A DNA stretch of 64,000 nucleotides, from contig NC_019678.1 in NCBI RefSeq assembly GCF_000316665.1, forward strand, positions 1 through 64,000, written 5' to 3'. The stretch is from Rivularia sp. PCC 7116 (GTDB lineage: Bacteria; Cyanobacteriota; Cyanobacteriia; Cyanobacteriales; Nostocaceae). The notes under the pieces were generated by a model. It worked only from the letters and a program-made list of their open reading frames with translations, was not told where the DNA came from and did no database searches. Positions 46 to 42,246 of the stretch are shown here, piece by piece. Positions within the stretch are counted from its first letter, which is position 1. Each line of letters starts with the position of its first letter. The position numbers and the translations under genes are program-made.

Positions 46-1413
46 ATGTCTGACAAGATAGAAAATTTATGGTCTCAAGTATTGGAGCGCTTGCAGTTAG
101 AACTTTCGCGTCCCACCTTTGAAACTTGGATAAAAACAGCGATCGCCGAAAAATTGGAAAATAACTGTTTGGTAATTCGTACTCCGAATCCCTTTGCTCG
201 CAATTGGTTACAAAAGTATTACATAAAAACTATTGCGTCGGTAGTCCAGGATATTGTTGGTCATCCAGTAGGTATTTATTTTACGGTCACAAGCGGTGAT
301 AATGCAGTCAATAAAGAAAGTGAAGCGAAGGTTGAATTGCCTCCAGTAACAAATATTCCGAGTAATATCGGTACAAACGGACAAAAAACATCGATTTTAA
401 ATTTAAAGTATGTATTTTCCCGTTTTGTAGTGGGTGCAAACAATCGCTTAGCTCATGCTGCTTCTTTAGCCGTAGCGGAATCTCCTGGGAAGGAATTTAA
501 TCCTTTGTTTTTGTATGGTGGTGTAGGATTGGGGAAAACCCACCTAATGCAGGCTATAGGTAATTATCGCTTAGAAATTTTCCCTTCAGCAAAAATATTT
601 TATGTTTCTACCGAACAGTTTACCAATGACGTAATTAGCGCCATTCGGAATGATAGCAGACAAAGCCTTCAAGAACATTACAGAGCAGCAGATGTACTAT
701 TAGTAGATGACATTCAGTTTATTGAAGGCAAAGAATCAACTCAGGAGGAATTTTTCCATACCTTCAACACCTTATATCAAGAAGGTAAACAAGTCGTTAT
801 TGCCTCAGATCGTCCCCCGAATCAAATACCTCGTCTTCAAGAAAGATTATCTTCACGTTTCTCTATGGGATTAATTGCCGATATTCAGGCACCAGATTTA
901 GAAACTAGAATGGCTATTCTGCAAAAAAAAGCTGAATACGAAAATCTCAATTTGCCTAAAGATGTTATAGAGTACATTGCTTCTAACTACACTTCTAATA
1001 TTCGAGAATTAGAAGGAGCATTAATTAGAGCTATGGCATATATTTCTATCTGGGGTTTACCGATGACAGTAGAAAATATTGGTTCGGTTTTACAACCGCA
1101 AGCTGAAAAGGTAGAAGCAACTCCAGTAGCAATTTTAAGCATAGTAGCCGATACATTTAATGTGTCTATTGAAGACCTCAAAAGTAATTCGCGACGACGG
1201 GAAATTAGCTGGGCGCGACAAATAGGGATGTTTCTGATGAGACAACATACGGATTTAAGTTTGCCTAGAATCGGTGAAGAATTTGGTGGTAAAGACCATA
1301 CTACTGTTATATACAGTTGTGAAAAAATTGCCCAATTGAAGCAAACAGACCATAGCTTGGGGCAAACTCTCCGTCAATTAGGCGATCGCATTGGTATGAA
1401 AAATTCTAAATAG
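46..1413 (+). CDS. dnaA: Chromosomal replication initiator DnaA
   Basis: DnaA binds DnaA boxes at the origin, melts the DNA and loads the helicase. The 455-residue protein has the family length and order: an N-terminal helicase-interaction domain (about 1-80), a variable linker, an AAA+ core with Walker [10 protein letters not shown] at about 158-166 and Walker B LLVDDIQF near 215-222, and a C-terminal DNA-binding domain with the signature [12 protein letters not shown] near 413. It lies directly upstream of a cluster of DnaA boxes and then dnaN, the classical origin arrangement. The ATG at 46 fits the normal N-terminus. A HIP1-type GCGATCGC octamer lies inside the gene. Identification is secure. 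Confidence 0.98.
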
Positions 1414-1864: not shown

Positions 1865-3037
1865 ATGAAACTAGTTTGCAATCAAAGCGATTTAAACACC
1901 CATCTTTCACTAACTTCTCGTGCTGTTCCTTCTCGCCCAACTCATCCTATACTTGCCAACGTGCTTCTACAGGCAGATGCTGCAAATGGTCAAGTTAGCT
2001 TAACAGCTTTTGATTTAAGCTTGGGAATTCGCACTACATTCAAAGCTGAGGTTTTAGAAGCAGGAACCATCACGCTTCCAGCAAAGCTACTTAACGATAT
2101 CGTTTCTCGTTTGCCAGAAGGAGAAATTACCCTTGATGATGAATCTACACATAAAGAAAATCAACCTTTAGGAGAAGGCTTGACTGTTACCTTAAAGCCA
2201 AAAAGCGGACGCTATGAAGTACGAGCAATGGGTGCCGAAGAATTTCCGGAACTACCCGTAACTGAGAATGAAAAAGCAATTCACCTTCCTGCTAGTGCAT
2301 TAATCGAGGGCTTGGGGGGTTCTTTATTTGCTACGAGTGCAGATGAAACCAAACAGGTGCTTACGGGAGTTCATTTAACGGTTAAGCAAGACGCTTTAGA
2401 ATTTGCAGCGACTGACGGACATCGTTTAGCTGTAGTAGAAACTACAAACGAGAATTTAAATGATGATGAAGAGCAACCCGATTCGGTACAGGTAACCCTA
2501 CCAAGCAAGGCTCTGCGAGAATTAGAAAGGATGTTAGCTCATAGTTCAGCAGAAGACGAGCCTGTAGCAATGTATTTCGATCAAGGGCAAGTAGTTTTTG
2601 AGTGGCAAAATCAGCGTTTAACCAGCAGAACTTTGGAAGGGCAATATCCAGCTTACCGTCAACTTATACCGTCGGGCTTTGAACGAGAGTTAACTTTAGA
2701 TCGAAAACAACTTATCAGCGCATTAGAAAGAATTGCCGTACTTGCCGATCAAAAAAACAATATTGCCAAACTTAGCATCGATAGTGAATCTCAAGAAATT
2801 ACCTTGTCAGTAGAAACTCAAGAAATCGGTAGTGGAATGGAATCCATGCCAGCACAAATATTAGGAGATGATATTGATATAGCTTTTAATATTAAATATT
2901 TGATGGAAGGATTAAAGGCATTACCTTCAGCAGAAATTCAAATGCAGCTAAACAACAATTTAGCTCCCGTTATATTTTCTCCCGTTGGAGGAATTAAAAT
3001 GACTTATTTAGCAATGCCCGTGCAATTAAGAAGTTAA
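1865..3037 (+). CDS. dnaN: DNA polymerase III sliding clamp (beta subunit)
   Basis: The beta clamp forms a dimeric ring that tethers DNA polymerase III to the template. The protein has 390 residues, slightly longer than the roughly 370 typical of E. coli. It starts MKLVCNQSDLNTHL and ends with the conserved clamp tail YLAMPVQLRS (compare the MPMRL-type end of other clamps). Three repeated clamp folds fit the length. A small acidic insertion near 195-202 (NDDEEQPD) accounts for some of the extra length. It lies in the same orientation as dnaA, across the DnaA-box region. Secure. Confidence 0.97.
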   Translation: MKLVCNQSDLNTHLSLTSRAVPSRPTHPILANVLLQADAANGQVSLTAFDLSLGIRTTFKAEVLEAGTITLPAKLLNDIVSRLPEGEITLDDESTHKENQPLGEGLTVTLKPKSGRYEVRAMGAEEFPELPVTENEKAIHLPASALIEGLGGSLFATSADETKQVLTGVHLTVKQDALEFAATDGHRLAVVETTNENLNDDEEQPDSVQVTLPSKALRELERMLAHSSAEDEPVAMYFDQGQVVFEWQNQRLTSRTLEGQYPAYRQLIPSGFERELTLDRKQLISALERIAVLADQKNNIAKLSIDSESQEITLSVETQEIGSGMESMPAQILGDDIDIAFNIKYLMEGLKALPSAEIQMQLNNNLAPVIFSPVGGIKMTYLAMPVQLRS

Positions 3038-3112: not shown

Positions 3113-6100
3113 TTATTTACTTTGCCTTAATGGAATTTCAATAGAGAATTCGGTACCTTTTCCAGCTAAAGATTTACAGTTAAAAATTCCATCATGTTTA
3201 TCAACTATTATCTGATAGCTAATTGACAATCCCAAACCTGTACCTTTACCTATAGGTTTTGTGGTGAAAAACGGGTCAAACATTCTTTTCATTACTTCTT
3301 CAGTTATTCCTAGCCCGTTATCGGCAATACGAATTACAATTCTATTTTTGTCTTCGCTAATATGAGTACAAATCCTAATTCTAGGGGTTAACGATTGATT
3401 ATTATCAGCTTCTACTTCCCAAAAACTGTGACTTACTCCTTCTTCTAATGTATCAATTGCATTACTAAAGACATTCATTAATACTTGATTTAACTGTCCG
3501 GCATAACATTCCACTTCAGGCAATTCACCGTATTCTTTAATTACTTTAATACCGGGACTATCTAGTTTTGCTTTTAAACGGTATTGCAAAATTAATAATG
3601 TACTCTCAATGCCTTGATGAATATCGGCACTTTTTAAATCTGCTTCGTCGAGTCGAGAAAAATTACGTAATGATAAAACAATTTCGCGAATGCGTTTAGC
3701 TCCTATTTTCATCGAAGATAGCATTCTCGGTAAATCATCAACTAAAAATTCTAAATCAATTTCTTCTGCTCGCTCGTCAACTTCGCAATTATTTCCGTTA
3801 CAACTTTGCTGATAAAGTTCTAAAATACTCAGTAAGTCTTCTGCATATTGATGAATATGATTTATGTTGCCGTAGATAAAGTTAACTGGGTTATTAATTT
3901 CGTGTGCGATACCCGCAACTAGTTGTCCTAATGAGGACATTTTTTCGCTTTGAATTAATTGGGTTTGCGCTTTTCTTAAATTAACCAGTGTCGTTTTTAT
4001 TTCTTCGGTTTGTAATCTACTTTGAGCGAGTAAATCTGCTTGCTCTAATGCTATAGAAAGCTGAATTCCTACTTGAGTGACAAATTGAACTTCTGAAGTT
4101 TTCCAGTTACGAGGTTTGTCGCACTGATGAATGCATAATAAACCCCAAAGCTCCTCACCTTTCATCACAGGGGCGATTATATTTGCTTTAACTTGAAATT
4201 TTTCTAAAATTGCAACATGACAATCCTTTAAACCAGCATTGCGAACATCAGTAACTACACTAACTCTTCCATGACGATATTTAGTTACATAATTTTCTCC
4301 AAAACAGCTATCTTTGATTTTTACCGCTAAAGCTGAAGAAATACCGGCAGAAATTTCTTCAGCAATTAATTCACCGTAGTTATATTCTGAATCCGAATCA
4401 AAGCGATATACGCCAACTCTATCAGTATTTAAAATGCGGCGCAGTTCTTTAGTTGTGATTTGAAAAATAGTATCTAATTCTAATGATTTCCGCATCTTTG
4501 CAACCAGATTAAACAACAATTGCTGTTGCTCTGTTGCTTTTTTCAAACTAATTGCTTGCTGTTTTGTTTGAGTTAATAATTCTGATTGCTGAATTGCTAT
4601 ACCGAATTGAATTGCGGTTTGGCATAAAAATTTTATCTCCGATACTTTCCAGTGACGTGGTGCAGAATTTTGATACGCTGCAAGTAAACCCCAAAGTTTT
4701 TCTCCTCTAAAAATTGGTGCGACAGCATATGCTTTTGCTTGAAATTGTTCTAAAAGTTCTATATGACAATCGGCATAACCAGCTTCATAAATATCATTTA
4801 CTACAGTACTTTTATTAAAGCGATAGCTTCCTCCTTGAGTTTCTTCTAAATAAGTATCTTTCCAAATTTTTGTAGCATCCGAATTTACTAGTTTTACCCA
4901 GCCTTCATTGACAAATTCAGCGACAAACTCACCACTCCAATCATGATTAAAACGATATACTGCGACTCTATCGGCTTGCAACGATTGACATACTTGTTGA
5001 GTTGTAGTTTTAAAAATAACTTCTAAGTCTAAAGATTCTCGAATTTTAGTAACTACTGCAAATAATATTTTTCGCTGCTTGGCTGATTGTTGTAATGCTT
5101 CTGTACGCTGTTTTACTTGTGTTTCTAAATTAGTATTGAAAGCTTGTAATTGTTGATGTAAGTCGTGTTGATGAATAGCAGTAGCAAATTGTTTAGCTAA
5201 TTTTTCTGCTAATTCTATCTCTCCCTTAGCCCATTGATGAGCTTGTGCGGTTTTTGATTCTCGCCAAGCTTCAAATGATTTTCGCGGATAGTTTTGCCTT
5301 TCATCTGAATCAAATTGTCCAGCCCAAAGGGTTTCTGTATCTATTTCTTCTCGAAAAATACTCAAGTAACCAAGTAACTGCTGATGATATTCGAGGGGAA
5401 TCATCAAGATGCTGCGAATTTTATTTATTTGAAAAGCAGGTTGTAAATTTCGTAAGCCGGAGATTTGATGAATATCGGAAATCGCCCAAACATCATAATT
5501 ACCACACTTATAATATTCTCCCCATACGCTAGACTGCTCCATCAAGGAATATTGTGCTGAGTCTGGTATTGTTGGTTGTTGCCCGTTAGTATAAATTTGG
5601 ATTAGATCGCTATCAGATTCTAAGCACTCATTTAAACTTTTAGAAGTTTGATTTCTAATACAAAGCCTACCACCACAACCTTTAAAAGCAGCAACCGTTT
5701 TTTCTAAAGCTGCTTGTAATGGCATATCTTTAGATGAATGTAGTAAAGTCGCAATACAACTAACAATTGCTTCTCGTTTAGCTTGTTCGCTAGCTTGAGT
5801 AAGCAGTGTATTGTGAGTAATGGCTACTGATAGTTGATTTACAACCATTTGCATTGCTGTTAACTGTTGTTCGGAAACCGAATATGTTTCCGAATGATGA
5901 GCAACTAACAATCCCCAAAGTTGTTCTTGATGAAAAATCGGTATAGCTACAGAAGACTTAACCCCCATTGCGGTTAGATATTTTAGATGACATTTATCTA
6001 CACTACGGCAAGAAATATCTTCTGAAATAATTTCTCCGGTTTCTTTCTCACACACCGGAATTTTACCAATTTGTCCAGTTTCTACATCAACGATAGAACG

Positions 6101-6403
6101 CACTCGCGACTTAATAAACAATTCCCGAGCATGAGCGGGAATATCATCAGCAGGAAAATTTAGCCCTAATAAAGATGGCAATATATCGTTATTAATTGAC
6201 TCAGCTACAACTTTACCGCTAGCATCAGGATGAAACTTATAAATCATTACCCGGTCAGTTGCAAGAAAAAGTCTTACTTCTGCTACTATTCTTGTAAAAG
6301 TTTGTTTTAATTCTGAAGAACAACGAATACAATTTGTAATACGGTATATTAAATTATCTGGCTCGATATTTTTCGGGAAGCTTTTCTCCTGGGGTAAAGT
6401 CAT
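3113..6403 (-). CDS. Multi-GAF photosensory histidine kinase (knotless phytochrome module plus two cyanobacteriochrome GAFs)
   Basis: A soluble bilin-type sensor histidine kinase of 1096 residues. Domains in order: GAF1 (about 35-200) with the phytochrome motif [11 protein letters not shown] (83-93) and candidate chromophore Cys138-His139; a PHY-like domain (about 215-415) with the tongue motif PRKSF at 373-377; a coiled linker; GAF2 (about 445-605) with Cys546-His547; GAF3 (about 630-790) with Cys728-His729 plus a DXCF motif (D698-S-C700-F); a coiled coil; HisKA with His834 (GIAHEINNP); and HATPase_c with N-box NAIDT, DNGLGI and GKGTGLGLS. No PAS domain precedes GAF1, as in Cph2-like knotless phytochromes. 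Three bilins are possible but bilin binding is inferred from motifs. No response regulator is adjacent. Confidence 0.9.
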
Positions 6404-6613: not shown

Positions 6614-7801
6614 TTACGCTTTCACAACTTCCGAAAAACGAATTTTCAAATAATCATCTTCCATTTTTGCTCCCGATGGTTGGAGTGCTGCTAGGGCTTG
6701 TGGCAATACTAAATTGCGTCGATGGTTGCCAATAGTAATATTTAATTCGTCTCCACTTTTACTTAGATTCACCTGGTTTTTAGGAATGCCCGGTAAATAT
6801 AATTCTAAACTATATTGATTTTGGTCTTGAACAACTCTAATTGTATTTTCTTTGTAATAAACTTGGGTTGGATCTTCATCTTTATAAAGTGTTTCTTTGA
6901 GTCTTTCTAAAGCTTCTAAACCACACATTTCTTCAGAGTAAAGCGGAACTTCTTTCACTGGTAAAGGGTGAAAATTTTCATGAAGCTCTTGACGATATTG
7001 CTCTTGATTATCTTTCCATCTTTTGAAAAATGGGTCTTGAACTTCTTGGGGAATAATCCGATTTGCTACTACTAAATCCGTTGCAACATTGTACAAACTT
7101 AAGTAAGCATGAGCGCGGAGAGATTCTTTAATTACCATCTTCTCTGGATTGGCAATCAAACGAACCGAGGTTTGGGTATTGTCAGTTAATACTTTTTCTA
7201 AGGCTTCAATTTGCTCGTAAAATTCGTAAGGTGCATCCATAACCTCTCTATCTGGTAAAGAAAAACCAGCGATGGGTCTAAAAATAGGCTCCACTAAAGG
7301 ACGCAACGCTACCGAAATATTTTGGAAAGGCTTATAAAAACGCCGCATATACCAGCCACCAACTTCTGGTAAACTCAGTAAGCGCAAAGCCGTACCAGTA
7401 GGAGCAGAATCAATAATTAAAACGTCGAATTCTCCATCATCATAGTGACGCTTCATTCTTACTAAACCGAAAATTTCATCCATCCCTGGTAGAATTGCTA
7501 ATTCCTCAGCTTGAATTCCCTCCAAACCCCTAGCTTGTAAAACTTGAGTAATATAGCGCTTTACAGAACCCCAATTTCCTTCAAGTTCTAACAAAGCATC
7601 TAATTCTGCACCCCACAAATTTGGTCTAACCTGCTGTGCTTCATGTCCGAGTTCCATATCAAAACTATCGGCTAAAGAATGAGCGGGGTCTGTACTCAGA
7701 ACCAACGTTTTGTAGCCTAATTCAGCACAACGCAGTCCAGTAGCAGCAGCAACCGAAGTTTTCCCCACACCACCTTTACCTGTCATTAAAATTACGCGCA
7801 T
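6614..7801 (-). CDS. ArsA/Get3-family ATPase with C-terminal Hsp20-like domain
   Basis: A P-loop ATPase of the ArsA/Get3 (TRC40) family, 395 residues. The N-terminus carries the deviant Walker [10 protein letters not shown] at 8-16, and switch-like motifs follow ([13 protein letters not shown] near 37, IIDSAPTG near 130). Residues from about 320 to the end form a beta-rich segment with the spacing of an Hsp20/alpha-crystallin-like domain ([12 protein letters not shown], then LNITIG and LKIRFSE). This ATPase plus Hsp20-like tail is a known cyanobacterial form. There is no arsB or arsR nearby, so arsenite export is unlikely. A role in handling tail-anchored proteins or as an anion-dependent ATPase remains inference. 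Secure as family, weak as function. Confidence 0.9.
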
Positions 7802-17222: not shown

Positions 17223-18050
17223 ATGAGTTGTAGTGAGCATAAGGCATTGAATTCAAATAAATCATCTTTACCAAAATTATTCAAAGGTATTGCATTATTT
17301 ACACCAGGAGGAGATTTAGTTTACTGTATCGATTCTAGTAAAAGAGGTCGATGGCATTCACATTTATGCGGTGCTTTACAGGAAATTTTGGATTTACCCG
17401 AACCTCCTCATTTTTTAGTTCCACTGTATACAGCTACTATTGATTACTGGCTAGATCCACGCACTCAGCAAGTGAGAACTTTTGCAGAGGCTTATCCAGC
17501 AGTTATACGTTACCAAGCTCTATTAAATGCTGTTTTTAATGCTGGCAATTTAAATTGGCAAAAAACTCCTTGGCATGATGGTTTGTGCGACAGCATTGTA
17601 TTAGCAACTTATCGTTCAAGTTTTGAACAGTTATGGGAAAATCATGATTTGATTGTGCGTTTAGAGATATCAGGAAAATTAGGTACCGATTCTCCCATAT
17701 TTACTCCACAAAAAATTACCCCTCCAAGCCAACCCTATATTCTTCGTTTATTTGTTGCAGGGCATACTCCGAATACTGAAAACATACTGCAAAGCCTCCA
17801 CGAACTTTTAGAAAAATATTTGGGAAGTCCTTATACTCTAAGAATTATTGATGTATTAACTCATCCCGAACAAGCAGAAATTCATCAAGTTAGTGCAACT
17901 CCTACTTTAGTTAAAGTCTCTCCTAAACCGACGAAACGAATTGTTGGAGATATGAATAATATGGATAGAATTTTACATATGTTGGGCATCTTAAATAAAT
18001 CAAATTATTCAGATAGATCCAATGAAGGTAGTTCAAATAATCCATTTTGA
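17223..18050 (+). CDS. Protein with C-terminal KaiB-fold domain
   Basis: A 275-residue protein. Residues about 171-255 align with KaiB: YILRLFVAGHTPNTENILQS, then YTLRIIDVLTHPEQAE, then SATPTLVKVSPKPTKRIVGD. These are the hallmark KaiB strand-helix blocks, also found as the sensor domain of SasA. Residues 1-165 form a separate domain, rich in aromatic residues and Cys, that I do not recognise. No kinase domain is present, so it is not SasA, and no kaiA or kaiC is nearby. Its 3' end overlaps the convergent DUF952 gene by 46 bp. A clock or redox signalling role is inference. Confidence 0.8.
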   Translation: MSCSEHKALNSNKSSLPKLFKGIALFTPGGDLVYCIDSSKRGRWHSHLCGALQEILDLPEPPHFLVPLYTATIDYWLDPRTQQVRTFAEAYPAVIRYQALLNAVFNAGNLNWQKTPWHDGLCDSIVLATYRSSFEQLWENHDLIVRLEISGKLGTDSPIFTPQKITPPSQPYILRLFVAGHTPNTENILQSLHELLEKYLGSPYTLRIIDVLTHPEQAEIHQVSATPTLVKVSPKPTKRIVGDMNNMDRILHMLGILNKSNYSDRSNEGSSNNPF

Positions 18051-33642: not shown

Positions 33643-33661
33643 AGGGCTACTAAAAAGTCCT
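33643..33661. other. Hairpin at the stop codon of the second FGE-fold gene (DGR-like)
   Basis: Stem AGGGCT (33643-33648) with AGTCCT (33656-33661), 5 of 6 pairs, and a 7-nt loop spanning the TAG stop. Geometry and position match the hairpin at 32617-32637. Confidence 0.55.
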
Positions 33662-33790
33662 CTCAACCCCGCAGGCAACACGAAAACCAAAAGGGTCAGT
33701 TATGTTGTCGCGCAGCGCCCTATCGTAGCTGTTGCGAGACGCGGAACGGCACAAATTTGGAGAGTCGATCCAGGAACCGCCCCGCAGCAC
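33650..33790 (-). other. Candidate DGR variable region, copy B
   Basis: The 3' coding end shares the framework listed for copy A, including GTGCTGCGGGGCG and TTTTAGTAG-type end sequence, but differs in the variable codons and is two codons longer. The length difference means the copies need not derive from the same template repeat. Confidence 0.5.
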
Positions 33791-35278
33791 CGCTCCTCCT
33801 TGCTTTTGAGAAAGATTATCATCCTCACTATCGAGCCAAGCATTGCCATCTTTCAGCGTATGTTTATAGTTATAATGCCAGTCATAAAGGCACCATTCCC
33901 AAACGTTGCCGTGCATATCGTATAATCCAAAAGTATTAGCTAGAAATTTCCCTACTGGAGTAGTTTCTTTACAATATTCTCCTTTAGCTTCCCTAGTATA
34001 AGTTTTAATAGCAGCATAATTAGCTAAATCACCAGTAATTGTTTGACCAAAGTGAAACGGTGTCGTAGTACCTGCACGACAAGCATATTCCCATTCCGCT
34101 TCAGTGGGTAAAGTGTAGATTCTACCTGTATAGTTAGAAAGACGATTGCAAAATTCAACTGCATCGTACCAGGATACTTGTTCTACAGGGCGGTTATCCC
34201 CTTTAAATCTAGAAGGTTCTAGTTTTATCTGCCTATTTATCTGGGATAACTGCGCTACAAATCGCCACTGTGCCTGAGTTACAGGATACTTACTCATGAA
34301 AAAAGGTTGTACAGTTACTGTATGCTGGGGACTCTCGCTTTTACGGCGTTTTGGTTCATCTTCTGGGGAACCCATTTCAAAAGTGCCTCCAGGAATCGCC
34401 ACCATTTCTATTTTTAGTTCTGCTTGTTTTCCTGGGACTTCACCTAAAAACTCTAGGAAATAAAATGCTTGTTTTTGCTCTTTATTAATTACTTGTCCGC
34501 GATTATCAACTGTTACCGTTTCAAATTCAAAAGATTTTAACTCGTCTTCTAACTCATCATCTCGGGTAATATCTGGGTTTATAACCGCGACATCATAGTC
34601 AAAAGGTTTTAGCTCAATTCCCATCAATTCAGCAATTTCCGTCTCTTCATCATCTTGGATAGGTTGAGCCTCAATGGTGTCCTGCGCCCATTTTAATAAC
34701 AACGGCTCAAAACCCTTCTCCGATAACAAGTCAGCATAATTCTCTACTAATGCTGCCCATTTAATACGTTGTTGAGCATCTGCGGATGCCGTTAACCTTT
34801 GTAATTCTTCTTTGATGGCATTAACTGCTTCTGTTCCATCCCCACTCAAATATGCTAATGCCGTCCAGTTTGGACGCTCTCCCAATACCAAAACACGGTC
34901 ATTGTCTTTCTGTAAGCGATTGGCAATGTACTGTGACATAAAATTCGCCAGTTCCTTGAGTCTTTCTTCCCCAAATTCAATACACAAACGACTCAGCAAG
35001 CGGTTTCTGGTTTTCCCCTCCATCTCATAAAGGTCATAGCCTACGGGTTGACATAAACCCGATAGCAACACATCGGCTACTGCATACCAAGGACAATCCC
35101 GGACAAAATTTTCGCGCAGACAATAAAGCAAATCTGAAGTGATAGTCAGCGGAAAAGCTGCATGATAGGCTAAAAATAGAGCCTGTTCTCCGTGACGTTT
35201 TGCAAAGACTCGAATGCGGCGAGTTGTTAAATCTTCTCTGTTGCTTGGTTTCTTTGAGTCGGGGAATACATTTGCCAT
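33650..35278 (-). CDS. FGE/SUMF1-fold protein with conflict-system N-terminal region (copy B)
   Basis: A 542-residue protein. Residues 1-250 form a helical region that I do not assign, containing TTRRIRVFAKRHGEQALFLA and DCPWYAVADVLLSGLCQPV. It resembles the helical part found in cyanobacterial proteins of vWA/MoxR-type operons. Residues about 290-540 are an FGE/SUMF1 fold with IPGGTFEMGSPEDEP, KYPVTQAQW, LPTEAEWEYACRAGT, GNVWEWC and GFRVACGV. Its start overlaps the end of the vWA-like gene by 52 bp, so translation is probably coupled. The 3' end is a candidate DGR variable region. Likely role: effector or ligand-recognition component of the operon. Confidence 0.87.
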   Translation of the reverse strand: MANVFPDSKKPSNREDLTTRRIRVFAKRHGEQALFLAYHAAFPLTITSDLLYCLRENFVRDCPWYAVADVLLSGLCQPVGYDLYEMEGKTRNRLLSRLCIEFGEERLKELANFMSQYIANRLQKDNDRVLVLGERPNWTALAYLSGDGTEAVNAIKEELQRLTASADAQQRIKWAALVENYADLLSEKGFEPLLLKWAQDTIEAQPIQDDEETEIAELMGIELKPFDYDVAVINPDITRDDELEDELKSFEFETVTVDNRGQVINKEQKQAFYFLEFLGEVPGKQAELKIEMVAIPGGTFEMGSPEDEPKRRKSESPQHTVTVQPFFMSKYPVTQAQWRFVAQLSQINRQIKLEPSRFKGDNRPVEQVSWYDAVEFCNRLSNYTGRIYTLPTEAEWEYACRAGTTTPFHFGQTITGDLANYAAIKTYTREAKGEYCKETTPVGKFLANTFGLYDMHGNVWEWCLYDWHYNYKHTLKDGNAWLDSEDDNLSQKQGGAVLRGGSWIDSPNLCRSASRNSYDRALRDNITDPFGFRVACGVERTF

Positions 35279-36497: not shown

Positions 36498-37505
36498 TCA
36501 TTGTTTTTTCTGATATAACTCCTGGTCTTGCTTGGTTTTTAAAAGCGTTCCTAATAATGGTAATTTCTTAGATAAATTGTTTAAATCATCCAATGCCTTT
36601 TCAACATCATTTCTATTTAAAAGTGCGGTAAGAAACTCGATAAATTCGCTAGTCCCTGGTGGTCTGCTTCCAGGTATGATTGTAAGTCCCGCGCGAATTT
36701 CATAAAAACTATTCATAGCTTGTTCGACAATTTTTTGTTTATCTTTTGTTAACTCACCAAATCGCTTATCAATTATTTTCTTTAATTGGTCTTCTTGAGG
36801 AAATTTGACAAAAAAGTACAGACACCGACGCAGAAAAGGTTCTGGTAAAGGTTTCTCACGATTGCTAGTAATAAAAATAATCGGCTTATTTTGGGGAGTC
36901 GGATATAACTCACCAGTTTCCGGTACTTCAAAGCGTAATTCTTCTAATTCCAGCAGTAAATCATTCGCAAAATCACTATCTGCTTTATCAATTTCATCAA
37001 TTAACAAAATAGGACGATATTTATGTTCTTGTAATGCCTTACCTAATGCTCCAAATTCCCGATAATTCTTCTTATCCTGCAACCGCTTTTTTAAATCTCC
37101 AATTTCTACAATACCTAAAAATTCTTGCAACTGTTGCGGGTTAGTTCCCATTAACTGAGCGTCTCGCAATCTGGCAATAGCATCATATTTATAAAGTCCA
37201 TCACGAGCGCGTGTTGTAGATTTTATATTCCAGATATAATAATCCCAGTACTGGTTTTGCAGATACTTTTGGGTAAATTCATAGGCAACCGCCGCCGCTA
37301 AACGAGTTTTACCACAACCGGGTTCTCCTTCTAAAAGTAATGGACGCTCTAGCGCGATCGCCAAATTAACCGCTTCTTTTAAATCCTCACTAGGTAGATA
37401 GGGATAGCAGATTCGTCCCAAAGAATCTTTTATTTCCTTTTGGGGTTGATATTCTCCCTTATACTGATAATCTGGTTCTGGTAATGGTTCTTGATTCTTA
37501 CTCAT
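36498..37505 (-). CDS. MoxR-type AAA+ ATPase (conflict system)
   Basis: A 335-residue AAA+ ATPase: Walker A EGEPGCGKTRLA near 54-65, Walker B PILLIDEIDKAD near 158-169, sensor IIFITSNREKPLPEPFLRRC near 209, as in MoxR/RavA-type ATPases. The ATG at 37503-37505 overlaps the stop codon of the upstream protease gene as ATGA, so I prefer it to a start 15 nt upstream. Such ATPases usually remodel a vWA-bearing partner, and one is encoded next. The ATGA overlap argues for translational coupling and a shared complex. Confidence 0.88.
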   Translation of the reverse strand: MSKNQEPLPEPDYQYKGEYQPQKEIKDSLGRICYPYLPSEDLKEAVNLAIALERPLLLEGEPGCGKTRLAAAVAYEFTQKYLQNQYWDYYIWNIKSTTRARDGLYKYDAIARLRDAQLMGTNPQQLQEFLGIVEIGDLKKRLQDKKNYREFGALGKALQEHKYRPILLIDEIDKADSDFANDLLLELEELRFEVPETGELYPTPQNKPIIFITSNREKPLPEPFLRRCLYFFVKFPQEDQLKKIIDKRFGELTKDKQKIVEQAMNSFYEIRAGLTIIPGSRPPGTSEFIEFLTALLNRNDVEKALDDLNNLSKKLPLLGTLLKTKQDQELYQKKQ

Positions 37506-39016
37506 CCTGCTAACTTCCAATAAGGTTCAATTGCTGTAATACCATTTTCAATTTGGAATACCGTATAACAAATTTCATCTAGTATTTCTAAAGGTTTTTC
37601 TTCCCAACCTGGAATATCATTCTCAACAATTGATTGTACGTAATCATCAGTTTGATTGAGTTTGCTATAAACATCTTCTTGAGCCAACCAATTTTCTACA
37701 TCTTTCTTTAAAATCTTTTGTAAAGGTGTCAGTTTTAGAGAAGATTGAGTTTCGTTAATTTCGTTAATAGAGATAGGCTGAACGAATGAAAATGGAAGTA
37801 GTTTATTCGACAAAGTAGCACTGTTTTTTTCTGCTAATATTAAAACCAAGCGCGAGCGAAAAGAACGCGGAATTGAACTAACTTTTTCAACTAAATCTGA
37901 CCAAAAAGCATAGAATTTACCTACTTTTTCTGCATCTAAACAGCTAATACCATAAATAACAATAATTACGGACTTTGTTTTACAAAATTCAGCTAACCCT
38001 TGAATTACCATTTCACGATTTAGATTTTCTCCTAAATCTTGCTTAAATTCCTGCCAAAAAGCATCAAAATTGTTTCGCATCGGATGAGAGCGAATCCGAA
38101 TTGATAATTTATAGGCTTGCTTAAAATCCGGTACGCATTTTGCTAAACGCCGCACCAACCAACGCTGAATTCTTTCTTCCCCTGTCTGAACTAAAAAAGC
38201 TCCTTCCTTACATTCTTCAATCGCACTTCTAAACTCTTGCTCTTGCTGTTTATAGTCCAATAAACATAAAATTTCTGCTATCTTTTGATTAGAGGATGGC
38301 TCTGTAACTAACGGCTGAACAATCGGAATATTGGTTTCCAAAATACGCGGTTTTATGCATGGTTCTAAATCGCACCAACATTCTCTCAAAACTTCAACCG
38401 GAATCATAAATCCTGCTTTTACTTGTTTGCGCTTTTCGCTTTCAGCAGGTTCTGCTGCAACCATGATTCCAGCAACTCCATTCAAAGTATCAACCCATAC
38501 AGGTGCGCCACTAAAACCACCTTCCACATAATAATCACTCTGCTCTAGAACAATCATTTGCACCTGCCCATTCCCAACAAAGTCCCGTAAATCTCCCTTA
38601 GTCCATACACCAACGTCGTATCCACTAGGAAAACCCAAAACTTTAAAAGCACTCCATGCATACTTTCCCATAACTAACCCAATTGGAAGAATATCTTCGA
38701 CTAAATTCTCCTCCAGTTTCAAAGCTGCAATATCATCTCCACCAACCCACATCCCCTCTGGAGACATCGGTTTCCAATAAACAACCTTGGCTTGAACTTT
38801 TTGCGTTCGTTCCCAAGCAAGTAAAGGGAAATCTAACTCCACCAAATCTTCAGGACAATCTTGAGCGGTATGTGCAATTCCCAAAGCATCAGCAACAACA
38901 TGAGCGCAAGTTAAAACATGGCGATTTAATACTAAAAAACCCGAACCTACAATAGCCCCATCCGAGCGGTAGATTCGAGCAATTGTTTTTTTATACAGTT
39001 CAAACTCATCTGTCAT
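37502..39016 (-). CDS. Trypsin-like serine protease fused to a STAND-like domain
   Basis: A 504-residue protein with no signal peptide. Residues 1-215 form a chymotrypsin-fold protease with a full triad: His39 (VLTCAHVV), Asp95 (VGGDDIAALKL) and Ser169 (EGGFSGAPVW). Residues about 235-440 look like an NTPase-type module without a visible Walker A lysine: LLDYKQQEQEFRSAIEE, GAFLVQTGEERIQRWLVRRL and VIIVIYGISCLDAE. This is the pattern called inactive STAND. A trypsin next to a small partner gene, MoxR and vWA proteins recalls bacterial conflict systems. It probably cleaves a partner when triggered. The protease call is firm, the second domain is inference. Confidence 0.82.
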   Translation of the reverse strand: MTDEFELYKKTIARIYRSDGAIVGSGFLVLNRHVLTCAHVVADALGIAHTAQDCPEDLVELDFPLLAWERTQKVQAKVVYWKPMSPEGMWVGGDDIAALKLEENLVEDILPIGLVMGKYAWSAFKVLGFPSGYDVGVWTKGDLRDFVGNGQVQMIVLEQSDYYVEGGFSGAPVWVDTLNGVAGIMVAAEPAESEKRKQVKAGFMIPVEVLRECWCDLEPCIKPRILETNIPIVQPLVTEPSSNQKIAEILCLLDYKQQEQEFRSAIEECKEGAFLVQTGEERIQRWLVRRLAKCVPDFKQAYKLSIRIRSHPMRNNFDAFWQEFKQDLGENLNREMVIQGLAEFCKTKSVIIVIYGISCLDAEKVGKFYAFWSDLVEKVSSIPRSFRSRLVLILAEKNSATLSNKLLPFSFVQPISINEINETQSSLKLTPLQKILKKDVENWLAQEDVYSKLNQTDDYVQSIVENDIPGWEEKPLEILDEICYTVFQIENGITAIEPYWKLAG

Positions 39017-40854: not shown

Positions 40855-42246
40855 TTAAACTGGCAAACAAACGGTAAAAACACTCCCTTCACTCAATTTG
40901 GAACGCACCGAAACTTTACCACCCATTCCTTCAACTAATGTCTTAACTATCGATAATCCCAAACCGGTTCCACCTGCACGGTTACGGGCTTCATCTACTC
41001 GGTAAAAACGCTCAAAAATGCGCGATTGATGTTGTAAAGGTATGCCATAACCGACATCACAAACTTGAACGCATCCTTCTTCCTCTTTGCGAGTTACCTT
41101 TAAAGTAATCGGCGTTCCGGCTTCGGAATATTTAACAGCATTGTCTATTAAGTTAAGCAATACCTGTTTAAGACGAGTATAGTCTGCTTTGACTTCGATT
41201 ATCTCTGTTGAAGCTTCAACTTTAATATTTCTTTCGCTGCATTTATCCGCCATATCTACAACTTCGGTGACTACATCATTTAAAATGCAGTTTTCTATAT
41301 TAAGATGCAAATTACCGTGGTCTGCTCTGGCTAATTCCAGTAAATCTTGTAATAAACCAATGGTATTGTCTGCTTCCGATGCCGCAGTTTCTAAAGCTTC
41401 TTTTTGGATTTCCGTTAAGTTTTGTTGTCTTCTTAATACACTTTGCAAGTATCCGTGGACAATTGTTAAGGGAGTGCGTAATTCATGAGACACGTTACTA
41501 ACAAATTGTCGCTCTTTTTCCCAGGAATCGGAAAGACGAGCCAGCATCATATTACAAGTTTCAGCTAACTGTTTGACTTCGGTAGGTGCTTTCTCTAAAT
41601 AAAGTTGTGCCTTTCCTAAATCGTCAGCAGAAATAACTTCTGTCATTTGACTTAACTGGCTTAAAGGCTTCAAAGAGCGCTTGACGTAAAATGCAATTGC
41701 CCCAGCCATAATTACAATTACAAAAATGCTAGTAGCACCCACACCCTGCATCATTGCCACAAACATAGTTTGGTCGCGGGTTATATCCTGAGCTACCGAA
41801 ATATATCCGATTTGCTTGCCACTTATTTTTAAAGAATCGCTGCAAAATACAAAATAGCGATTGCCAAGTTGAATGACTTTAGGTTTGATTGGAATATTTT
41901 TTAAGGCAATTAATTGATTTTCTTGAGTTGGAGATGAGTTCATCAAAGTATTAGACTTTGCTAATATTTGATTCTCCGCACTTTCTACCCATAGGAAGGT
42001 ATTGTTGGTATCTATATTTTTGATCGCTTGAGAAAGTGCTTGTTCCCGCGAAGCCATTTTGCTATAAAGTTCTGCATCGCGGGGTATCGTTGTGGCAATT
42101 TCTTCAATATTTTTCTTATGGTTCTCAATTAATATTTGCTGCATTCTCCAACCAGTCCAAGAAGCAAGGCTGCCCAAACCTAGAATTGAAAATGCTGCAA
42201 CACCAGCCGTTAAACGTAATCTTAAAGAATTAAAGTCAAGTTTCAT
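40855..42246 (-). CDS. Membrane sensor histidine kinase
   Basis: A 463-residue two-component sensor. The first membrane helix is near 13-30 and the second near 172-190 (TSIFVIVIMAGAIAFYV). The 140-residue loop between them is the extracytoplasmic sensor. HAMP follows (about 190-245), then HisKA with the phospho-acceptor in VSNVSHELRTPL (His near 256), and HATPase_c with NLIDNAVKYSE, DVGYGI and [11 protein letters not shown]. No response regulator lies beside it. Minus-strand neighbours upstream encode DUF4079 and DM13 proteins, separated by a repeat array. Confidence 0.9.
   Translation of the reverse strand: MKLDFNSLRLRLTAGVAAFSILGLGSLASWTGWRMQQILIENHKKNIEEIATTIPRDAELYSKMASREQALSQAIKNIDTNNTFLWVESAENQILAKSNTLMNSSPTQENQLIALKNIPIKPKVIQLGNRYFVFCSDSLKISGKQIGYISVAQDITRDQTMFVAMMQGVGATSIFVIVIMAGAIAFYVKRSLKPLSQLSQMTEVISADDLGKAQLYLEKAPTEVKQLAETCNMMLARLSDSWEKERQFVSNVSHELRTPLTIVHGYLQSVLRRQQNLTEIQKEALETAASEADNTIGLLQDLLELARADHGNLHLNIENCILNDVVTEVVDMADKCSERNIKVEASTEIIEVKADYTRLKQVLLNLIDNAVKYSEAGTPITLKVTRKEEEGCVQVCDVGYGIPLQHQSRIFERFYRVDEARNRAGGTGLGLSIVKTLVEGMGGKVSVRSKLSEGSVFTVCLPV

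Follow-up and report, generated by a model that had tools for sequence, protein, structure and literature searches.

The window, i.e., the whole stretch of 64,000 nucleotides of Rivularia sp. PCC 7116 that was analyzed, contains next to dnaN a gene for a sensor histidine kinase with several photoreceptor-type domains, which raises the question of which light signals, and how many of them, reach this one kinase. The preliminary description of this DNA proposed a knotless phytochrome module and two cyanobacteriochrome (CBCR) GAF domains on a single kinase, an outline that is well supported by sequence comparison. The reading that we favor, with a probability of roughly 0.8, is that of an All2699-type kinase in which a red/far-red GAF1-PHY module carrying phycocyanobilin (PCB), a second switch in GAF3, and a blue-absorbing GAF4 together report the color balance. 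For this reading, we infer the chromophores, the colors, the direction of kinase control, the dimer, and the partner by analogy. The kind of kinase is already known; what is of interest here is the variant, the history of its locus, and the middle GAF.

Domain architecture and locus of the kinase

The features of the locus are collected in Table 1. In the 1096-residue protein, the Pfam profiles find GAF over three stretches (242.9 bits), PHY (46.7 bits, cut-off 27), and HATPase_c (73.9 bits), the last one above its cut-off, while HisKA scores 25.4 bits, slightly below the curated cut-off of 26.9. No PAS family is among the six Pfam families listed and the alignment of GAF1 begins at residue 12-16, in agreement with the absence of PAS stated earlier; a PAS-containing phytochrome is thereby ruled out. 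Reading the protein letter by letter gave C138-H139, FPADDIP at 83-89, WAG at 360-362, PRKSF at 373-377, W380-x-E382, C546-H547, D698-S-C700-F701, and C728-H729, which bears out the three Cys-His pairs, the PRKSF sequence in the PHY-like domain, and the DXCF motif with Cys700 of the preliminary description. A test set beforehand asked whether the cysteines fall on the chromophore position, and they do so in GAF1 against 6oza/6ozb, in GAF3 against 3w2z/5zoh, and in GAF4 against 3vv4. The domain with the DXCF motif had been called the third GAF; the domain exists, but it is the fourth GAF-like unit once the PHY-like domain is counted. The earlier interpretation was right in outline, but it left the middle GAF without a class, which is assigned here to the XRG lineage with a biliverdin signature, and did not name All2699. 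Its suggestion of red/far-red sensing combined with a blue-shifted sensor agrees with the characterized relatives and may, by this analogy, extend to the window protein.

Table 1. Coordinates of the kinase gene, its domains and motifs, and its recurring neighbors in the window.
Feature	Residues and motifs	Position	Strand	Evidence
dnaA, recurring neighbor		46..1413	+	TIGR00362, 545 bits
dnaN, recurring neighbor		1865..3037	+	TIGR00663, 347 bits
Sensor histidine kinase gene	1096 aa, GAF1-PHY-GAF3(XRG)-GAF4(DXCF)-HK	3113..6403	-	Open reading frame and Pfam
Histidine kinase	810-1096 (His834, N977/N981, D1028xGxG, GTGLGL)	3116..3976	-	Pfam, letter check, alignment
GAF4, DXCF-lineage dual-Cys CBCR GAF	630-800	4004..4516	-	Motif and 3vv4 alignment
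Canonical chromophore Cys of GAF4	Cys728	4220..4222	-	3vv4 alignment
DXCF motif	D698-S-C700-F701	4301..4312	-	Letter check
GAF3, XRG-lineage CBCR GAF	447-618, Cys546-His547	4550..5065	-	5zoh 229, 3w2z 221, 6bhn 215 bits
Equivalent of I336V (BV4)	Val561	4721..4723	-	Gap-free alignment
Equivalent of H318Y (BV4)	Tyr543	4775..4777	-	Gap-free alignment
Equivalent of F308T (BV4)	Thr533	4805..4807	-	Gap-free alignment
Equivalent of AnPixJg2 H293Y (BV4)	Tyr518	4850..4852	-	Gap-free alignment
PHY-like domain	205-420	5144..5791	-	PF00360, 46.7 bits; 8w26, 4bwi
PHY tongue	357-384, motifs WAG, PRKSF, WRE	5252..5335	-	Letter check; motif names from PMC6696110
GAF1, knotless phytochrome chromophore GAF	14-200 (FPADDIP 83-89, Cys138-His139, His169)	5804..6364	-	6oza, 6ozb
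ArsA/GET3-type ATPase, recurring neighbor		6614..7801	-	Family models

GAF1 aligns without gaps with 6oza (All2699g1, 247 bits) and with the near-identical 6ozb (248 bits). Across residues 16-436 the GAF1-PHY module matches SyB-Cph1 8w26 with 248 bits, the match to Cph2 4bwi reaches 174 bits, and the PHY-like domain searched alone retrieves these same two proteins. The features that define a knotless phytochrome are found in the sequence, namely a GAF with CH and DIP, a PHY that bears a tongue, and no PAS ahead of them. GAF1 and the PHY-like tongue would form a PAS-less red/far-red phytochrome switch on PCB.

At the other end of the protein, the phospho-acceptor H834 and the kinase residues N977/N981, D1028/G1030/G1032, F1045, and G1056/G1058 are present and invariant across 20 aligned sequences; we take the residues after H834 to be those of the N, G1, F, and G2 boxes. 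The nearest three orthologues, at 82-84 % identity, retain the set of CH, DXCF, and PRKSF motifs, and dN/dS of the window gene against these three is 0.11-0.31 in each of the five domains, which argues that the motif set is not due to chance. The structure was predicted with AlphaFold2 from a 20-row alignment (mean pLDDT 72.6, pTM 0.40), giving a model with usable folds and an unreliable domain arrangement, in which residues 809-846 and portions of the tongue fall below 50 pLDDT and long helices (393-456, 587-638, and 769-819) connect the GAF folds.

The gene sits in a recurring dnaA-dnaN-kinase-ArsA block. In 15 of 16 loci, three being the same gene repeated, dnaN lies at most about 1 kb from the kinase; in the sixteenth (L067) ArsA is on the other side and the available stretch ends shortly past the kinase. 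Among the loci of the final tree, ArsA is within 1.8 kb in 41 of 42 (none was found for L071) and dnaN, among the genes listed, within 2.5 kb in 32 of 42. Elsewhere in the window, a protein of 275 residues (17223-18050, + strand) has a C-terminal KaiB match (PF07689, 94.7 bits), with no Pfam match listed for its first 174 residues, and a protein with an FGE-sulfatase domain and a trypsin-iSTAND protein are encoded near each other (33650-35278 and 37502-39016, both - strand). Such a pair may be a conflict or signaling module.

The chromophore of the middle GAF

The structures best matched by GAF3 are 5zoh, 3w2z, 6bhn, 5dfx, and 6xhg; we take 3w2z, 6bhn, and 5dfx to be AnPixJg2, NpR6012g4, and Slr1393g3, and 6xhg to be JSC1_58120g3. 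The WxDxxL motif of the XRG lineage is present (W514, D516, L519), together with C546-H547. The definitions of the XRG and DXCF lineages and their behavior follow PMC11284453. AnPixJg2 has been engineered to bind biliverdin (BV) by the four changes H293Y, F308T, H318Y, and I336V, giving AnPixJg2_BV4 (5ZOH), with those at 308 and 336 termed the most crucial for BV uptake (PMC8156171). GAF3 carries naturally Y/T/Y/V at these positions, and this signature, together with the XRG motif and the closeness to AnPixJg2_BV4, leads us to expect a third input, either red/green or far-red/orange.

The frequency of this signature was determined among 155 unique XRG GAFs having WxD and the Cys, drawn from 506 unique domains that were gathered by similarity around the window protein and are thus not a random sample. 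Y/T/Y/V occurs in four of the 155, every one in the orthologue group of the window, and Y/I/Y/V, one residue off the full set, in three, all from the sister group of three congeners whose proteins have no GAF4. In the remaining 148, Thr308 does not occur, Val336 occurs three times and Tyr318 five times. A stepwise route to the signature through L204 (Y/L/Y/I) and L205 (Y/L/H/I) was dropped; both are placed elsewhere on the tree, and Tyr318 there is therefore a parallel and not a step. A positive control for BV binding was also sought among matches on Acaryochloris plasmids, and neither of the two loci aligned, out of three, has the XRG motif.

Both candidate bilins are expected in the cell, given that the genome encodes one PcyA (the single PF05996 match, 365.5 bits, cut-off 206) and two heme oxygenases. 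As the second switch, GAF3 would be far-red/orange if BV is bound and, with PCB, either red/green or red/orange. It is possible, though rather doubtful, that GAF3 takes up BV natively, either by itself or together with PCB, and responds to far-red/orange light; this would place such a sensor among relatives of Rivularia and Calothrix instead of in Acaryochloris. We consider it somewhat probable that GAF3 is an ordinary red/green CBCR with only PCB in the cell, and that Y/T/Y/V tunes color or stability and is unrelated to BV. PCB is the usual chromophore of CBCRs and PcyA is encoded in the genome; a natural BV binder of Acaryochloris, AM1_C0023g2, takes PCB (650/539 nm) as well as BV (699/618 nm) (PMC4876366), and the four BV4 changes gave no conversion of AM1_1186g2 (PMC6628166). 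Furthermore, of the AnPixJg2 pocket residues W289, D291, R301, H322, and Y352, named as conserved around the cofactor (PMC8156171), four are kept in GAF3 and R301 is replaced by Ser526; the other three orthologues have S, K, and R at this position, which is non-Arg in three of the four. A PCB-only GAF3 is nonetheless at odds with the confinement of the full set to the orthologue group, with the zero count of Thr308 in the 148 XRG GAFs outside the genus group, and with the weight given to 308 and 336 in BV uptake. BV uptake outside Acaryochloris is not without precedent, because SPI1085g3 of Spirulina takes up BV weakly, with an efficiency of 12.8 %, and JSC1_58120g3 of Leptolyngbya is named as a BV binder (both PMC9378818). 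In the accessible part of the open-licence PMC literature no paper on the CBCRs of Rivularia was found, an absence that carries little weight.

Were GAF3 to bind BV, one kinase would use up to three bilins (PCB, BV, and phycoviolobilin) with a range from blue to far-red, and this would have originated at a dnaN-adjacent locus that swaps photosensory GAF cassettes while its phytochrome front and kinase end stay constant. An XRG GAF that is naturally ready for BV would help to show which residues are important for far-red CBCRs in imaging and optogenetics.

GAF4 and the exchange of CBCR cassettes

In the alignment of GAF4 with 3vv4 (102 bits), which we take to be a photoreceptor GAF of AnPixJ, C700 falls on the DXCF Cys and C728 on the CH Cys. 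The best scores of GAF4 go to XRG chains (128 bits for 5zoh vs 102 for 3vv4), and its DXCF label therefore rests on the motif. GAF4 would be a blue-absorbing dual-Cys switch, probably blue/green following isomerization of PCB to phycoviolobilin, which would arise within the DXCF GAF. With no bilin bound, the thiol of Cys700 would be free, and this second Cys could act mainly as a redox or ligand sensor, or GAF4 could be photochemically inactive; this is very improbable, the complete DXCF and CH set and the matching of both Cys positions in 3vv4 speaking against it.

The history of this part of the protein was followed on a tree of 42 relatives, built from the aligned GAF1-PHY front and kinase with the CBCR part excluded. 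The input comprised 53 loci including the window, with L079 (the gene of L191) and other collected loci outside it. From these were omitted L065 and L066 (same genes as L192 and L193); L183, L184, L213-L216, and L081, where neither dnaN nor ArsA was found in the available stretch, itself a short one in the cases of L183 and L184; L212, whose frame has no kinase; and L099 (no suitable frame). The GAF classes in the final counts, X for XRG and D for DXCF, were assigned by pairwise alignment.

In the 42 relatives, GAF1-PHY at the front and the kinase at the end are retained and the cassettes in between differ, being XX (20), X (13), XD (6), XDX (2), and DD (1). At least seven cassette changes are needed on the tree, vs a mean of 18.9 with shuffled labels. 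XD requires two changes: the four of the window's group form one supported set (100/99), separate from the other two. Named members of this group are Calothrix parasitica NIES-267, Rivularia sp. MS3, and an uncultured Calothrix. The order GAF1-PHY-XRG-DXCF-kinase is not confined to them, being found also in L197 and L198, and in L026 outside the family, and other relatives have DXCF and further GAFs in different orders. In the eight genomes of the window's genus that were searched, XD is present in the window and in three others (G514, G516, G517), X in three (G440, G513, G518), and in G515 a full-length relative was not found. The X proteins are without exactly one GAF unit, GAF4, the junction being within the connecting helices.

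In an ArsA-adjacent relative (L211, G525:C1:2696000-2710000), the cassette lacks an XRG GAF and consists of two DXCF GAFs. The genome of the window also encodes a second knotless-type kinase (L050, G000:C1:6805500-6812000) in a frame of 1153 amino acids, with two XRG GAFs that have YSFV and YSFL at the four BV4 positions and with no PRxSF found by motif search.

The variation of the cassettes between two conserved ends, and the three congeneric genomes without GAF4, would be compatible with a kinase that is controlled by GAF1-PHY alone, with GAF3 and GAF4 as spacers or vestiges that come and go freely. We regard this as unlikely. The Cys, His, WxDxxL, and DXCF residues of GAF3 and GAF4 are intact in all four orthologues, and an empty cassette is found in none of the 42 rows of the tree. 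Moreover, dN/dS of the window gene against its three closest orthologues is 0.13-0.16 for GAF3 and 0.11-0.16 for GAF4, with up to 0.23 for GAF4 between two other orthologues, and the resulting range over the compared pairs (0.11-0.23) is as low as that of the kinase (0.11-0.22). If, as we favor, all the modules report to the kinase, the locus would be a natural test of several light switches sharing one kinase, with the gene at the equivalent place in relatives that have one, two, or three CBCR modules, and with the contrast between presence and absence of GAF4 within one genus.

Output and comparison with known systems

In the favored reading, light would isomerize the bilin of each GAF, and the signal would pass along the long helices linking PHY, GAF3, and GAF4 to the kinase, where autophosphorylation of His834 would relay the color balance to an unlinked response regulator. 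The genome has at least 151 PF00072 matches (150 of 177 first-look candidates were scored), and among the matches listed none is in 1-64000. The neighbor genes that were scanned are not response regulators, and a linked one is ruled out among the matches listed. Another histidine kinase, with HisKA and HATPase_c above cut-off, is encoded at 40855-42246 (- strand); for this one, too, none of the response regulators listed lies within the window.

Cph2 has a further CBCR GAF downstream and a GGDEF/EAL output, not a histidine kinase. For the window protein no GGDEF or EAL family is listed and a kinase is present instead, which rules out a Cph2-type output; what it has in common with Cph2 of Synechocystis (4BWI) is the knotless GAF-PHY module. 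SyB-Cph1 (PDB 8W26, PMC11264168), compared over GAF-PHY, likewise has this module without PAS or knot.

The closest architecture is that of All2699 from Nostoc sp. PCC 7120, described as GAF1-GAF2(PHY-like tongue)-GAF3(CBCR)-kinase (PMC6696110; also PMC12907550). In this protein, g1 binds PCB with a dark state at ~638 nm and is red/far-red, and g3 binds PCB with a dark state at ~645 nm that converts to about 595 nm (PMC6696110). All2699 and the window protein have the same order of domains, a PAS-less GAF1, a PHY-like GAF2, a CBCR GAF3, and a histidine kinase, and the same tongue motifs W(A/G)G, PRxSF, and Wx(D/E) (PMC6696110). Unlike All2699, the window protein has an additional DXCF GAF ahead of the kinase. 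Its XRG GAF has Y/T/Y/V at the BV4 positions and, in a comparison made through relatives, resembles the second XRG of the Nostoc XX-type ones (65-69 %) more than the YFFL-type GAF of those with one CBCR (53-56 %).

For the middle GAF, the nearest known systems are CBCRs that take up BV. GAF3 aligns gap-free with AnPixJg2_BV4 and shares the four engineered residues (229 bits vs 221 for 3w2z), but it is natural and not engineered and has Ser where AnPixJg2 has Arg301. JSC1_58120g3 (6xhg) shares with GAF3 a Tyr and a Val, two of the four residues, and is unlike it in having Phe at 308 and an insertion ahead of the Cys. By description, GAF3 may also be likened to SPI1085g3 of Spirulina, a natural CBCR GAF with some BV uptake (PMC9378818), and to the BV-binding XRG GAFs of Acaryochloris (PMC4876366), with which it has the XRG lineage in common and would share the predicted acceptance of BV and far-red/orange switching.
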